A DNA stretch of 64,000 nucleotides, from positions 1-64,000 of the forward strand of contig JALCZJ010000011.1 of the NCBI GenBank assembly GCA_022690815.1. The letters are read 5' to 3'. A program made the translations under genes and the position numbers. Below the pieces are notes generated by a model. The model worked only from the letters and a program-made list of their open reading frames with translations. It was not told the DNA's origin and did no database searches. This document shows positions 16,061 to 24,786 of the stretch, piece by piece (the first letter of the stretch is position 1; each line of letters begins with the position of its first letter). The stretch is from Ferrimicrobium sp. Its GTDB lineage: Bacteria > Actinomycetota > Acidimicrobiia > Acidimicrobiales > Acidimicrobiaceae.

Positions 16061-17677
16061 ATGTTCAGACACGACCGCATTGTGAGCCTGCGCTCTCTTG
16101 CCATCAGCATCATTCTCGCACTGGCCTTCATCGTGGTCCCGTCGTATGCTCACATTACCCAGCGGTCTCTCCCCGCATCGCATCTCGCAAGTGCCAACGC
16201 GGGATATCTCCTTGCGGGCGCCGATGGTTCGGTCTATGGTTTTGGAACTGACACCTACGGCTCGACCTATACCGACGGTTTGACAGGACTCGGAGGGGCT
16301 CACCCGCTGGCCGCCCCGATCGTGGGGATGGCTGCGACGCCGGGCGGGCAGGGGTACTGGATGGTCGGAAAGGATGGCGGCGTCTTTGACTTTGGCAACG
16401 CTGGATTTTATGGTTCGACCTATACCTATGGCATCACCGGGCTCAGTGGCGCTCACCCACTCAACGCCCCGATCGTGGGGATGGCTGCCACGCCCAATGG
16501 CAAGGGCTACTGGATGGTAGCCGCCGATGGCGGCGTCTTTGACTTTGGCAACGCTGGATTTTATGGTTCGACCTACAGCGACGGATTGACCGGACTCACT
16601 GGTGCCCATCCGCTGAACAAGCCGGTCGTTGGCATCACCTCAACCCCGGGTGGTCACGGGTACTGGATGGTAGCTGCCGATGGCGGGGTCTTTAACTTTG
16701 GGTCGGCCCCATTTCTCAACTCACTGGGGGGTCAAAGGATACCGGCACCCATTGTCGCAATGGTCATGGTCCCCCAGGTACACGGCTACGACGTCTCCAA
16801 CTACAACTGTCAGGATCTGCCCAACTCCCCACAGGGATTGATGTTCGTTGAGACCAACGGCTATCCGTTTAGCTTCGACTATGAACCTGCGACAAGTGCT
16901 GCATGCGGGACGGCGAATAACGGCATCTCTCAAGGTCTCATGGCTGCGCTGGAAATCGCTGGCAACGCCACCCAACCCTATCTCTTTCTCGGCGATAGCC
17001 CCAGCTCCTCCAACGCAAACCCAACGGTCACCGACTATGTACCGAGCGGTTGTGCTACCGATCCCCAAGATGTAGGACTTACCACAACGGGAACCTCGTT
17101 GCCAGGATGGGACTCAACTACCTGTCAATATGACGAACCTGCAAACGCCGGTGCCTTTGCGACGGCACCAGACGTTACACAAGGCTGTCAACTCTACGTC
17201 AACGCGGGCCACTCGTGTGCGCAACCGGGGCCCAACTTCAACTTCGGATGGCAACAGGCCATCTTTGGATTTGATACGGCGACGGTAAATGCCGACGCAG
17301 CCAACCTTCCAAACATCGTGCACAACACCTGGTGGCTTGATGTCGAGACCTCTGGAAGTTGGACAGGCGATGGTGCCGGCAACTACGATGCCATCCTCGG
17401 CTCCATCGCCGCGCTGGAATCGCTCGGTGCCTCCAGCGTTGGGATCTACTCGACCAACTACCAATGGTCACAGGTCACCGCTGGAGCCCCTAACGGCGCA
17501 GCACTGCCCACCAACACTGCACTCTGGATACCTGATCCGGGTGCGAATCCAACCGCAGTTTGCCAGGGAGCGGCTGGGGTTAGCTACCTACCCTTTGGCG
17601 GCGGAGCCATTCACTACGTCCAATATGGCGTGACCGACCAGTTTGGTGGAGCCATCGATACCGATCAGAGCTGCTAA
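16061..17677 (+). CDS. secreted repeat protein with GH25-like C-terminal domain
   Basis: 538 residues from the ATG at 16061 (GGGGGT at 16052-16057). Residues 1-30 form a signal peptide (short basic start, then SLAISIILALAFIVVPSYA). Four tandem units of 50-51 residues follow at about 49-242, each starting YWMVAADGGVFDFG or a variant. They resemble the beta-propeller-like repeats common in acidimicrobial exported proteins. Residues about 243-538 begin HGYDVSNYNC and contain WWLDVET and GIYSTNYQWSQ, which resemble the strand-end acids of GH25-type lysozymes. About ten cysteines suggest disulfides outside the cell. Cell-wall binding or muralytic activity is an inference. The stop overlaps the convergent VWA gene by 3 bp. 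Confidence 0.8.
   Translation: MFRHDRIVSLRSLAISIILALAFIVVPSYAHITQRSLPASHLASANAGYLLAGADGSVYGFGTDTYGSTYTDGLTGLGGAHPLAAPIVGMAATPGGQGYWMVGKDGGVFDFGNAGFYGSTYTYGITGLSGAHPLNAPIVGMAATPNGKGYWMVAADGGVFDFGNAGFYGSTYSDGLTGLTGAHPLNKPVVGITSTPGGHGYWMVAADGGVFNFGSAPFLNSLGGQRIPAPIVAMVMVPQVHGYDVSNYNCQDLPNSPQGLMFVETNGYPFSFDYEPATSAACGTANNGISQGLMAALEIAGNATQPYLFLGDSPSSSNANPTVTDYVPSGCATDPQDVGLTTTGTSLPGWDSTTCQYDEPANAGAFATAPDVTQGCQLYVNAGHSCAQPGPNFNFGWQQAIFGFDTATVNADAANLPNIVHNTWWLDVETSGSWTGDGAGNYDAILGSIAALESLGASSVGIYSTNYQWSQVTAGAPNGAALPTNTALWIPDPGANPTAVCQGAAGVSYLPFGGGAIHYVQYGVTDQFGGAIDTDQSC
16205..16786 (+). repeat. four tandem 150-153-bp coding repeats
   Basis: Units start at 16205, 16355, 16508 and 16661. Units 2 and 3 share almost identical DNA for about 50 bases (GATGGCGGCGTCTTTGACTT and onward, near 16373 and 16526), including synonymous positions. 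This points to recent duplication or gene conversion. Unit 4 is shorter and more diverged. Confidence 0.85.
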
Positions 17678-19870: not shown

Positions 19871-21169
19871 TTAGTGACGAGTCTGGCCCTCTCCTTCGAT
19901 GAGGATCTTCGTGGTGGTAAGCTGCGCAGCTCCCATCGGACCACGGGCATGGAGCTTCTGGGTACTGATGCCGATCTCGGCGCCCATCCCGAGTTGACCT
20001 CCATCAACGAAACGTGTGGAGGCATTCACCAGTACGCTGGCGGCATCGACCTCTCGCTCAAAGCGCTGTGCATGAGCAAAACTATTGGTGATGATAGCCT
20101 CAGAGTGGCCCGAGCTAAAGTGTCTGATGTGATCGATCGCCTGATCTAGGTCGTCAACCACCCTGACCGCCAAAATAAGATCTAAGAATTCGCGAGCATA
20201 ATCGTCCTCAGTGGCCACGTGGGCTCGCGGACAAAGCGCTCGCGTTTGCTCATCCCCTCGAAGTTCAACGTTGGCGAGGGCAACATCCAAACGGGGTAAG
20301 AGGGCCCTGGCGACCGCGCGATGGATGAGCAACGTCTCCATCGCATTGCAAACACCTGGGCGTTGTAGCTTTGCGTTCTCGATAATTGCCACCGCCATCG
20401 CAAGATCAGCGCTCTCATCGACATAGACATGGCAGTTACCGTCGCCATCGATGATGGTGGGAACACTGGCATAGGTGCGAACCGTGTTGATCAGCTCCGG
20501 CCCTCCTCTTGGGATCAGTACGTCCATAGCGGAGCCGAGCTGCATGAAGGCGATGGCGCTCTCCCGAGTCGTCTGGCTCACCATAGCCACCAGATCCTGG
20601 GGCATGCCAACCTCGCCAATCGCCCCTCGAAGCGCGTCGACGATAGCTCGATTGGAGTGCACTGCGAGCGAAGATCCTCGCAAGACAATGGCGTTACCGG
20701 CATAGAGCGCGAGCGCAGCCGCATCAGAGGTGACATTCGGACGATTCTCATAGATCACCCCGACAACCCCTAACGGGACCCGAACACGACGCACGCGCAA
20801 CCCGTTGTCCAACACCCAACCATCGACGACCGCACCAACGACGTCGGGTTGGTGTGCTACCGATCGAATCGAGGCTGCCATCGCCCCAAGACGCGACTCG
20901 TCCAGTGTAAGGCGATCACGCTGGGCACTGGTGAGCGCGTTAGCCTCGGCAAGATCTTGCTGGTTGGCGGCCAGGATCGCGTCACGATTCGCCTCGATAC
21001 CGACAGCCATCGCCTCCAAGAGTCGTTGTCGCATGGCTCCGGTGCTCGTCGCCAGCGTCCGTTGGGCTTGGCGTGCGCGCTCAGCAAGCACCCTTAAGGC
21101 CTCGACGATGCCCTCATCCACTACAACCTGGGGAGTGACCATCTCATCAGCGTAGAGGCCCCGAAGCAT
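19871..21169 (-). CDS. proA: gamma-glutamyl phosphate reductase
   Basis: Second step of proline synthesis: NADPH-dependent reduction of glutamyl-5-phosphate to the semialdehyde. 432 residues with the aldehyde-dehydrogenase-like fold; visible blocks are GVIYENRPNVTSDAAALALYAGNAIVLRG, VPTIIDGDGNCHVYVD (substrate region), and the catalytic cysteine in RPGVCNAMETLL near residue 256. The reading frame overlaps the end of proB by 23 bp. An internal ATG at 21142 would make the two genes almost adjacent and is an equally possible start. Operon with proB and obgE. Confidence 0.94.
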   Translation of the reverse strand: MLRGLYADEMVTPQVVVDEGIVEALRVLAERARQAQRTLATSTGAMRQRLLEAMAVGIEANRDAILAANQQDLAEANALTSAQRDRLTLDESRLGAMAASIRSVAHQPDVVGAVVDGWVLDNGLRVRRVRVPLGVVGVIYENRPNVTSDAAALALYAGNAIVLRGSSLAVHSNRAIVDALRGAIGEVGMPQDLVAMVSQTTRESAIAFMQLGSAMDVLIPRGGPELINTVRTYASVPTIIDGDGNCHVYVDESADLAMAVAIIENAKLQRPGVCNAMETLLIHRAVARALLPRLDVALANVELRGDEQTRALCPRAHVATEDDYAREFLDLILAVRVVDDLDQAIDHIRHFSSGHSEAIITNSFAHAQRFEREVDAASVLVNASTRFVDGGQLGMGAEIGISTQKLHARGPMGAAQLTTTKILIEGEGQTRH

Positions 21170-22238
21170 CGTCGGCGACGACGGGTGTCAGGAGGGCCAG
21201 ATCATCACGATGTACCACAATCGAGTGAGTGCCGAGAATCGCCGTAGAATCGAGTCGGCTCAGACCACGAGCGAAGATCTCCCCGTTGGCCGTTACGATC
21301 TCCACGCTCGCACCAGACATGAACCGACCCTCGACCTCTCGAACACCGACCGCCAGCAGCGAAGCTGTGCCAGAACGCAAGGCGCGCTGGGCCCCCTCGT
21401 CGATCACCAGCCTGCCCTCGGGATCGGTGGCATAAGCGATCCAAAGACGTCGTGCTGACTCACGCACACCGAGTGCAGGAATCAACGTCGAAGGATATGG
21501 ACGTCCCATGACCGCGTCCTCGATCACCGCCTCCGTCTCGGCAGATGCGATCAGACAGGTGACTCCCGAACGCGCAGCGATGCTGGCAGCGGCCAGCTTC
21601 GAGGACATGCCACCGCTCCCACGGCCTGAAATCGACCCCTCGGCTTGGACGGTTCCAATTTGGTCAACCTCGAGCCGTTCCACGAGACGCGCACCCCGAA
21701 CAAGGCGTGGATCGGCATCGTAGACGCCGGGTAGATCGGTCAACAACAATAAGAGATCGGCATGGACCAGATGTGCAACCAATGCAGCAAGTCGATCGTT
21801 ATCGCCAAAGCGAATCTCCTCATTGGCTATTGCGTCATTTTCGTTGATCACCGGAACGACGTTGAAGCTGAGCAACGCATTCAGCGTTGATCGAGCATGC
21901 AAATATTGCCGTCGATCACCGAAGTCCTGCGGTGCAAGGAGTATCTGACCGATCCGGATGTCGTGGGCTCCAAAGAGAGTGGACAACTGGCCAAGCAGTT
22001 CGATCTGTCCAAGGGCGCTCAGCGCCTGGAGCATCGAAGCCTCGCTCGGCCGAGGGATCTCGAGGCGACGCACACCGAGGGCGATCGCCCCCGAGACCAC
22101 CAAGACGACCTCTACCCCACTACGGCGCACCGAGTCGATGCCTCGCACCAACGCGGTGGCGACATCAGTACGGAACTCACCGGAATCGGTGGTCAGCGAG
22201 GTCGTGCCGACCTTCACCACCAACCGGCCAATTGGCAT
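21147..22238 (-). CDS. proB: glutamate 5-kinase
   Basis: First step of proline synthesis, phosphorylating glutamate. 363 residues: an amino-acid-kinase domain at about 5-250 (VVKVGTTSLT, VSSGAI-type VVSGAIALGV, NENDAIANEEIRFGDND, GSGGMSSKLAAA) and a C-terminal PUA domain at about 275-355. The start ATG shares a base with the obgE stop (TGATG) and uses GAGGAC within the obgE end as its ribosome site, so translation is coupled. Feedback control by proline is a family property. Confidence 0.95.
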   Translation of the reverse strand: MPIGRLVVKVGTTSLTTDSGEFRTDVATALVRGIDSVRRSGVEVVLVVSGAIALGVRRLEIPRPSEASMLQALSALGQIELLGQLSTLFGAHDIRIGQILLAPQDFGDRRQYLHARSTLNALLSFNVVPVINENDAIANEEIRFGDNDRLAALVAHLVHADLLLLLTDLPGVYDADPRLVRGARLVERLEVDQIGTVQAEGSISGRGSGGMSSKLAAASIAARSGVTCLIASAETEAVIEDAVMGRPYPSTLIPALGVRESARRLWIAYATDPEGRLVIDEGAQRALRSGTASLLAVGVREVEGRFMSGASVEIVTANGEIFARGLSRLDSTAILGTHSIVVHRDDLALLTPVVADDASGPLR

Positions 22239-23518
22239 CAGTCCTCCTCGAAGGTGAACTCAAAGCTACCGACTGTGACCAAATCGCCCTCTCGACATCC
22301 CAGACGCCGTAGCATGCGAAACACGCCCATCCGCTCGAGTCGGGTATGAACAATCGCCAGAGCATCGGCCTGACCAAGGTCGCTCAACCCAACGGCGTGG
22401 AGAGCATCACGTCCTTGCACTACAAAACTGGAATCCCCCGTGCGTTCCACCTGAACCTCAAAATTTGGGCGAGGGCGATAGATCGTTCGCTCGACGGCCC
22501 TTGGCTGCGCGGCTCGAGCCGAGTCCACGATCCTGGCGAAACCGTAAATGACCGACGCCATGTGACGACGATCGACGTTGGAAACGACGCCAACCAGCGG
22601 TACGGCGAAGTGCTCACCAACGCGTGACATCCGCGCTCTTGCCTCATCCTCATCTTCAACAAGATCAAGTCTGGTGCCAACCAATACCCTTGGCCGATCA
22701 CCCAGCGACTCCTGGTAGTTGGTCAACTCATGAAGAAGCTGTGCGACCTGCTCCGCCATCTGGGCTTCATCCAGATCAGCGGGCACCACGAGTGCCAAAG
22801 CGACGGCTCGCTCAACGTGTCGCAAGAACGCATGTCCCAGCCCGCGCCCCTCGCTTGCACCCGCGATCAACCCCGGGATGTCAGCGACGATGTACTCCGT
22901 CGCATCGGTTGGACGCACGACCCCAAGATTCGGCACTAACGTTGTGAAGGCATAATCGGCGATCTTTGGACGAGCACGGGAGATATTAGCGATAAGGGAA
23001 GATTTGCCGACATTGGGCTCGCCGATCAGACAGATGTCGGCTTTGAGTTTGAGCTCTAGATTAAACCAGTACTCCTCCCCGACCTCGCCCTGCTCGGCAA
23101 AGCCTGGAGCACGCCGTCGATTCGACAAAAAGCGAGCGTTCCCCGCCCCTCCCCGCCCTCCACGAGCCACCACGACCGAGGCACCTGGCTCCGCGAGGTC
23201 AGCGACCAACGTTCCATCGAAATCCCGTACCACCGTCCCCAGCGGTACCCCAACGACTTGATCACGTCCACCAGCGCCATGCATCTTCTTACCCTGGCCA
23301 TGAGCACCGTCGCCACCGCGTCGAAAGGGTTGGTCTCGGAATACGATCAGCGAGGCAAATTGCGGGTCGACCGTCAGAATCACATCGCCACCCTTGCCAC
23401 CGTCGCCACCGTCGGGCCCCCCACGATCCACGTGAGCTTCTCGCCGAAAAGAGACTGCCCCCGCTCCTCCGTTACCAGCCTTCACATGGATTTGGGCAGC
23501 ATCTACAAACTCAGCCAT
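22238..23518 (-). CDS. obgE: Obg-family GTPase, 50S assembly and stringent response
   Basis: 426 residues with the three canonical parts: the glycine-rich Obg fold at 1-158 (AGNGGAGAVSFRREA, GGDGGKGGDVIL), the G domain at about 159-330 (P-loop GEPNVGKSSLI, DIPGLI, GTRLDLVE), and the OCT domain to the C terminus. It associates with the large ribosomal subunit and binds ppGpp. GAGGTAAC precedes the ATG. Unlike the tight rpmA-obgE spacing common elsewhere, about 400 bp separate it from rpmA, with a strong terminator 21 bp before its start. Its expression must therefore depend on read-through or antitermination. Confidence 0.95.
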   Translation of the reverse strand: MAEFVDAAQIHVKAGNGGAGAVSFRREAHVDRGGPDGGDGGKGGDVILTVDPQFASLIVFRDQPFRRGGDGAHGQGKKMHGAGGRDQVVGVPLGTVVRDFDGTLVADLAEPGASVVVARGGRGGAGNARFLSNRRRAPGFAEQGEVGEEYWFNLELKLKADICLIGEPNVGKSSLIANISRARPKIADYAFTTLVPNLGVVRPTDATEYIVADIPGLIAGASEGRGLGHAFLRHVERAVALALVVPADLDEAQMAEQVAQLLHELTNYQESLGDRPRVLVGTRLDLVEDEDEARARMSRVGEHFAVPLVGVVSNVDRRHMASVIYGFARIVDSARAAQPRAVERTIYRPRPNFEVQVERTGDSSFVVQGRDALHAVGLSDLGQADALAIVHTRLERMGVFRMLRRLGCREGDLVTVGSFEFTFEED

Positions 23519-23918
23519 CGTTACCTCGTCACAAACAGAAAAAAGGCGGAGTCAAAGACCCCACCTTCTCAATTTACTGGTCTTTCTCTGGCTTGGCGTT
23601 CCAAGCTACGCCTTCCGGACTGGCCGATCACCACCAACAGCGGCGACCACGCCCTGTCAGTGCAATGCCGTCTGCTGCGCCATCAACCGTCCTTAGCGTC
23701 CCCGACTGGCGTCAGACACGCTCCGCCGCCTACCTTAAGGTTGTGATCAACCCCGAGGGCGGTCACGAGCTTTACGCCCACGTCGCCCAGTGCGGAGTTA
23801 TCCTCGTCAATGACCGACCGTTGGCCTCGAGAGAGTATCGTAGCTGGGATAATCTCGGGAGACACCCCTAGCTAGGACAACGCTCGCGACCGACAGGCCC
23901 CAAGCGTGACCACACAAA
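23519..23918 (-). promoter_or_regulatory. long untranslated region before obgE, candidate attenuator leader
   Basis: 400 bp without a convincing gene on the strand of rpmA and obgE. It ends in an intrinsic terminator (23539-23565). The segment AAAGACC on the minus strand (plus coordinates 23579-23585) is exactly complementary to GGTCTTT in the terminator arm and loop (23554-23560). The two pairings exclude each other, as in transcription attenuators. A further hairpin, GCTTGG-AACG-CCAAGC on the minus strand, lies at about 23592-23608. A 60-codon frame at 23683-23865 (GTG start) lacks a good ribosome site. Known actinobacterial RNAs (4.5S, tmRNA, RNase P, 6C) were not recognised. Function is inferred. 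Confidence 0.45.
23539..23565 (-). terminator. intrinsic terminator upstream of obgE
   Basis: Reading the minus strand, GGTGGGGTC and GACTCCGCC pair over nine positions (two G-T pairs) around a TTT loop and are followed directly by six T. It stops transcription coming from rplU-rpmA or from a promoter within the 400-bp region, 21 bp before the obgE start codon. Confidence 0.8.
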
Positions 23919-24191
23919 TCAGTTTGCGGGTGAGTCATCCTCACGAGGCACCACCGACACCACCTTGCGTCCTCGATGCACTCCATAGACGACCTGCCCG
24001 AAGTCCTTAGCGAAGAGGGTATCGTCACTGCCGCGTCCCACGTTGGTGCCTGGATAAAACTTCGTGCCACGTTGGCGCACCAGGATGGAACCGGCTTGGA
24101 CCGTCTGGCCGCCGTATACCTTTACACCCAGGCGCTGCGCGTTAGAATCGCGACCGTTCTTCGTCGAACCGCCACCCTTAGTCTTTGACAT
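23919..24191 (-). CDS. rpmA: 50S ribosomal protein L27
   Basis: 90 residues with the full family pattern: [20 protein letters not shown] at the N terminus, then [21 protein letters not shown] and [12 protein letters not shown]. It contributes to the peptidyl-transferase region. The N-terminal tail begins with [13 protein letters not shown], where many actinobacterial homologues have MAHKKGASS. It is not of the cleaved Firmicutes type. The ribosome site GAGGAA precedes the ATG. It lies 283 bp after rplU, an unusually large gap for this gene pair. Confidence 0.97.
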
Positions 24192-24474
24192 ACGTTCCTC
24201 ACTTCCTAAAACACTACAGAGAATAGCACCTGCGCGAACCGCGGGCTTGGCTCACGCTCGCCTCGCCACACGCATTCCTAGCGATGTCGATCTCGCTCCC
24301 GATGCTGATTCCCCCAGCGATATCGCTGAGCCGCTCGAACCTACCTATGCCCAAGGATCTGCTTACAATGATTCGCTCACAGCAAGTAACCGGCTGACCA
24401 CCTGTCGTTAGGTCAGGGCCGATCGAGCAGTTGCGACGATGACGCTCAACCTCAATGGGCGTCCATCACCATGG
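24192..24474. other. spacer between rplU and rpmA
   Basis: 283 bp separating two genes that are nearly adjacent in most bacteria. No reading frame of convincing quality was seen on the minus strand. A TATTCT box about 40 bp before rpmA could belong to an internal promoter, but no matching -35 box was found. Confidence 0.3.
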
Positions 24475-24786
24475 CTACTCAGCGACGATCGACGTGATCA
24501 TCACGCGGGTGTACTTTTGGCGATGACCAAAATGCTTCCGCTCGTTCGCCTTGGACTTATACCGGAAACCGATCACCTTCACGCCTTTAACTTCTTCAAC
24601 GATTTCGCCTCGCACGACAACACGTGAAAGCTCATCCGAGCGCGAAAGCACCCGATCATCGTCGACAAAGAGAACAGGACGAAGGGTGACCTCATCACCG
24701 CTTTGCGCATCAAGGCGCTCAACGAGAACCGTCCTACCCTCAAACACCTTGGCTTGCTTCGAGCCTACATCAACAACTGCATACAT
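24475..24786 (-). CDS. rplU: 50S ribosomal protein L21
   Basis: 103 residues, standard length. It begins MYAVVDVGSKQAKVFEGRTV and ends with the RNA-binding segment YKSKANERKHFGHRQKYTRVMI typical of L21, which binds 23S rRNA domain with L20. It starts 19 bp after the rne stop, consistent with cotranscription of rne, rplU and rpmA. Confidence 0.97.
   Translation of the reverse strand: MYAVVDVGSKQAKVFEGRTVLVERLDAQSGDEVTLRPVLFVDDDRVLSRSDELSRVVVRGEIVEEVKGVKVIGFRYKSKANERKHFGHRQKYTRVMITSIVAE

Follow-up and report, generated by a model that had tools for sequence, protein, structure and literature searches.

A terminator-like hairpin that stands directly before obgE in a stretch of Ferrimicrobium sp. 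DNA (contig JALCZJ010000011.1, positions 1 to 64,000; hereafter the window, 64,000 nt) is confirmed as a real, conserved element. We give a probability of roughly 0.6 to the reading that this hairpin acts constitutively as a leaky intrinsic terminator within the gene string rplU-rpmA-obgE-proB-proA. The reading is favored by the six T after the hairpin, by its retention throughout the genus at a level of conservation similar to that of rpmA coding sequence, next to an upstream gap that looks random, and by its restriction to a single locus. The folding contrast across the family, the U-rich tails of three other genera and a parallel in Escherichia coli also argue for it. The absence of proper U-runs in six sister species, a spacing that is constant relative to obgE but not to rpmA, and a modest covariation within the genus argue against it. 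No alternative fold is conserved.

Gene order and the hairpin before obgE

The genes are read from the minus strand in the order rplU, rpmA, a 400-nt gap, obgE, proB and proA. The features of this region are:

24475..24786, minus strand: rplU, ribosomal protein L21, from sequence
23919..24191, minus strand: rpmA, ribosomal protein L27, from sequence
23571..23918, minus strand: remainder of the rpmA-obgE gap, unconserved, with no gene and no clear promoter
23579..23585, minus strand: AAAGACC, the suggested antiterminator arm, considered a chance match
23554..23560, minus strand: GGTCTTT, hairpin arm and loop, proposed partner of AAAGACC, from sequence
23540..23570, minus strand: terminator-like hairpin with nine core pairs, or 14 if the weak outer ones are included, and a TTT loop, from sequence and folding, kept in all seven genus members
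23539..23544, minus strand: six-T run 3' of the stem, from sequence
23523..23527, minus strand: GAGGT, likely Shine-Dalgarno sequence of obgE, outside the hairpin stem
22238..23518, minus strand: obgE, Obg/CgtA GTPase, from sequence
21147..22238, minus strand: proB, named from sequence, overlapping the end of obgE by 1 base
19871..21169, minus strand: proA, named from sequence, overlapping proB

Read along the minus strand from 23570 down to 23540, the hairpin is GAGAAGGTGGGGTC-TTT-GACTCCGCCTTTTT. Two of the nine core pairs are G-U, and the stem reaches at most 14 pairs when the weak outer ones are counted. The G+C-rich stem is followed by the run of six T, and of the 12 nt that follow the last G-C pair, 10 are T. 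The foot of the hairpin lies 20–21 nt ahead of the obgE ATG, and the CGAGGT that contains the likely Shine-Dalgarno sequence is invariant in the genus. Of 200 shuffles of the 60 nt that hold the hairpin, 199 fold less well (z = −2.97). The original prediction described a nine-pair stem with a TTT loop and six T just 21 bp ahead of the obgE ATG, and this description holds together with its coordinates.

The untranslated gap between rpmA and obgE is, as first described, exactly 400 nt long (23519-23918), and it contains no plausible gene. A small gene within the gap has been rejected: its open reading frames match nothing in Pfam, and no relative of the DNA is present in the family. As a whole, the gap folds better than its shuffles (z = −3.68), and its upstream part is without counterpart in the sister species, including a predicted branched fold (window 23750-23893, minus strand) closed by GGTCGCGAGC/GCTCGTGACC; the folding of the whole gap is therefore given no weight here. 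The gap between rplU and rpmA (window 24192-24474) is also long, 283 nt here and 118–217 nt in the sister species, and rpmA may have its own promoter there. Elsewhere in the window, positions 16262-16701 hold a tandem array of 2.9 copies of a unit of ~153 bp; matches spaced 153 bp are also present in three sister genomes (G017, G018 and G019).

Conservation within the genus and the family

Six sister genomes, one of them titled Ferrimicrobium sp., carry an obgE that is 88–89% identical to the obgE of the window. The hairpin is present in 7/7 Ferrimicrobium genomes, always 20–21 nt from the obgE ATG, in rpmA-obgE gaps of 188–400 nt. Across the seven genus members, 98.8% of pair cells hold standard pairs. 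Two stem pairs have changed on both sides, for example from C-G to U-A, for which the window shows a U-G intermediate; this covariation is equaled by 39 of 500 shuffles. The 52 nt from the hairpin to the start codon have a mean identity of ~75% between species, compared with 74% for the coding end of rpmA. The gap upstream of the hairpin, about 140 to 350 nt long across the genus, has a mean identity of 41% compared with 40% for shuffled sequences. A covariance model of the hairpin finds the obgE site in each genus genome and otherwise only weak matches in two genomes, which excludes a dispersed palindromic repeat of the REP type. The obgE site is matched on both strands since the hairpin is a palindrome.

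The family sample comprises 38 relatives and the window, in all of which rpmA adjoins obgE. All 29 members with a gap of at least 71 nt (genera g1, g3, g7 and g8) retain a hairpin of at least 12 pairs before obgE at this same gene boundary. The genera with gaps of 13–53 nt (g2, g4, g5 and g6) have either no hairpin or a short stem that no U-rich tail follows. The hairpin sequences are unrelated between genera, as in GAAAACCTCGG...CCGAGGTTTTC, GTAGAACTCCGC...GCGGAGTTCTAC and GACCTCGG...CCGAGGTC, and the distance from hairpin to ATG is roughly 10–30 nt across the family. Most members of the hairpin genera g3, g7 and g8 have U-rich tails. In genus g8, the covariation check found no two-sided changes in the outer stem. 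The mean folding z of the family is −3.65 in the 60 nt before obgE, compared with −0.61 before rpmA in the same genomes.

The proposed antiterminator pairing

The original prediction was that AAAGACC pairs with GGTCTTT in a fold exclusive with the terminator, so that an RNA switch would decide transcription into obgE. Both motifs lie at the positions given for them, and an exact 7-nt complement is indeed present in the window, but the match is no better than chance. When the upstream 348 nt are shuffled, a 7-nt exact complement to the hairpin turns up in 35% of cases; shuffling the nearest 60 nt gives 15%. The AAAGACC/GGTCTTT fold reaches −5.6 kcal/mol, compared with −19.2 kcal/mol for the terminator, too little to displace it. 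The alternative pairing would disrupt just part of the terminator stem, and its equilibrium probability is about 1e-5 (1 in 100,000 molecules).

Conservation of the pairings in relatives had been proposed as one test that could refute the switch. The terminator pairing is kept, whereas the antiterminator pairing is not: in all six sister species, the sequence upstream of the hairpin lacks an exact 7-nt complement to it. Rfam yields no family at threshold, be it a riboswitch, a T-box or a leader. Because of this result and the shuffled-level identity of the upstream gap, we find no conserved upstream aptamer or leader. A kinetic trap would be beyond the reach of energy arguments; as far as comparison of the sequences goes, the fact that relatives do not share the pairing counts against a switch that is in use. 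With a weak, chance-level pairing that is missing from 6/6 sister species, a terminator/antiterminator switch ahead of obgE is very improbable.

Proposed leaky termination and its alternatives

The broader claim that transcription into obgE-proB-proA is controlled at this point fares better than the switch mechanism attached to it. On its way into obgE-proB-proA, transcription meets a conserved terminator-like element, which therefore probably sets the amount of read-through. In the proposed mechanism, polymerase coming from the ribosomal-protein genes would mostly halt past the hairpin and the U-run, closing the abundant rplU-rpmA message, and the fraction that reads through would yield a smaller amount of obgE-proB-proA message. 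We infer from its form and place that the hairpin terminates, that it is leaky and that it serves to set the dose ratio. A two-state fold would be unnecessary, and modulation, if any, would be the work of general factors, for instance NusA and NusG. Translation of rpmA stops about 350 nt ahead of the window hairpin, so ribosomes would presumably not disturb it.

Some of the evidence on the tails complicates this reading. Within the genus, the full six-U run is found only in the window species. The tails of the six sister species, such as TTCGTTGG, TTCATTGG and TTTTCCCGG, fall short of a proper U-run, with 5–7 T in 12 nt when counted by hand (n = 6); a scripted count gave 2–7 in 12, the value of 2 arising where outer pairs were counted into the stem. 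According to the title of Czyz 2014, cited in PMC8060035, mycobacterial polymerase needs a U-tract, and NusG is reported to help suboptimal terminators (PMC8060035). The weak tails of the sister species could still terminate with the help of NusG, or the hairpin could protect or define an mRNA end.

The latter possibility amounts to an alternative in which cleavage of the operon message takes place within the variable gap and the ratio is set after transcription, with the hairpin shielding from decay either the 5' end of the obgE-proB-proA mRNA or the 3' end of the rpmA mRNA. The distance of 20–21 nt to the obgE ATG is constant, also in the six sister species with their weak U-runs, and a plain terminator of rpmA would not need such a spacing; the stems of the family are strong too, ranging from about −17 to −30 kcal/mol. 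However, the hairpins of the other genera mostly carry the U-rich tails typical of terminators, and that of the window is followed by six U. We regard such a processing or end-protecting role as unlikely, if the least improbable of the alternatives.

A further alternative is that the hairpin ends rpmA only and that obgE is mainly transcribed from its own promoter in the gap. Gaps of 188–400 nt in the genus could house a promoter upstream of the hairpin, but transcription from there would still read through it. Since only 20–21 nt separate the hairpin from the ATG (roughly 10–30 nt in the family), there is hardly room for a promoter past it, and those nucleotides include the ribosome-binding site. 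Any obgE transcript started upstream that carries this site must therefore cross the hairpin. Promoter-like sites above the level of shuffles were found in none of the seven genus gaps, with a consensus that fits actinobacterial promoters poorly, a mismatch that leaves some weight to this alternative. One sister species (G018) has TATAAG-like letters past the hairpin, but the genus does not conserve them. On balance, an obgE promoter of this kind is rather doubtful.

The original prediction also allowed for a trans-acting factor. A factor such as NusA/NusG, L21, L27 or Obg itself might tune the read-through with growth, making the site a family-wide control point that links ribosomal-protein output to Obg dose. 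We consider such tuning a long shot, slightly more so than a separate obgE promoter.

Comparison with known systems

The statement that no regulator of this kind has been described for obgE is not quite right, since the corresponding boundary in E. coli holds a terminator. The gene order of strain K-12 is rplU-rpmA-yhbE-obgE, and a strong terminator (AAAGCCCCGCAACACGTTGCGGGGCTTTTT) is seen in the sequence directly after rpmA, in the rpmA-yhbE gap. A 2016 study by Maouche and colleagues is said to have found that about 75% of transcripts stop there. The two systems share the gene boundary and a strong hairpin with a U-run. They differ in that the E. coli hairpin lies close behind rpmA with yhbE intervening, whereas that of the window abuts the ribosome-binding site of obgE, and the terminator sequences are unrelated.

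Riboswitch, T-box and ribosomal-protein leader attenuators also place a terminator hairpin a short way before a start codon, but the window gap is without the conserved upstream aptamer, leader or antiterminator. In the ribosomal-protein operons of Methanococcus maripaludis, internal terminators (ioTTS) have been shown experimentally to lower downstream genes (PMC10450193). Like the hairpin of the window, they sit between genes for ribosomal proteins and a gene of which less is needed. The ioTTS are archaeal, depend on polyU and aCPSF1 and are established by experiment, whereas a lowering effect in the window is proposed from the DNA.

Implications

No new class of RNA regulator emerges from the hairpin, which looks like one more internal terminator of the ordinary sort, placed between obgE and the ribosomal-protein genes ahead of it. 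If it does terminate, E. coli and the Ferrimicrobium family, two distant lineages, would both have set a leaky terminator between L27 and Obg. This would suggest selection for keeping the essential GTPase Obg at a lower dose than the ribosomal proteins.
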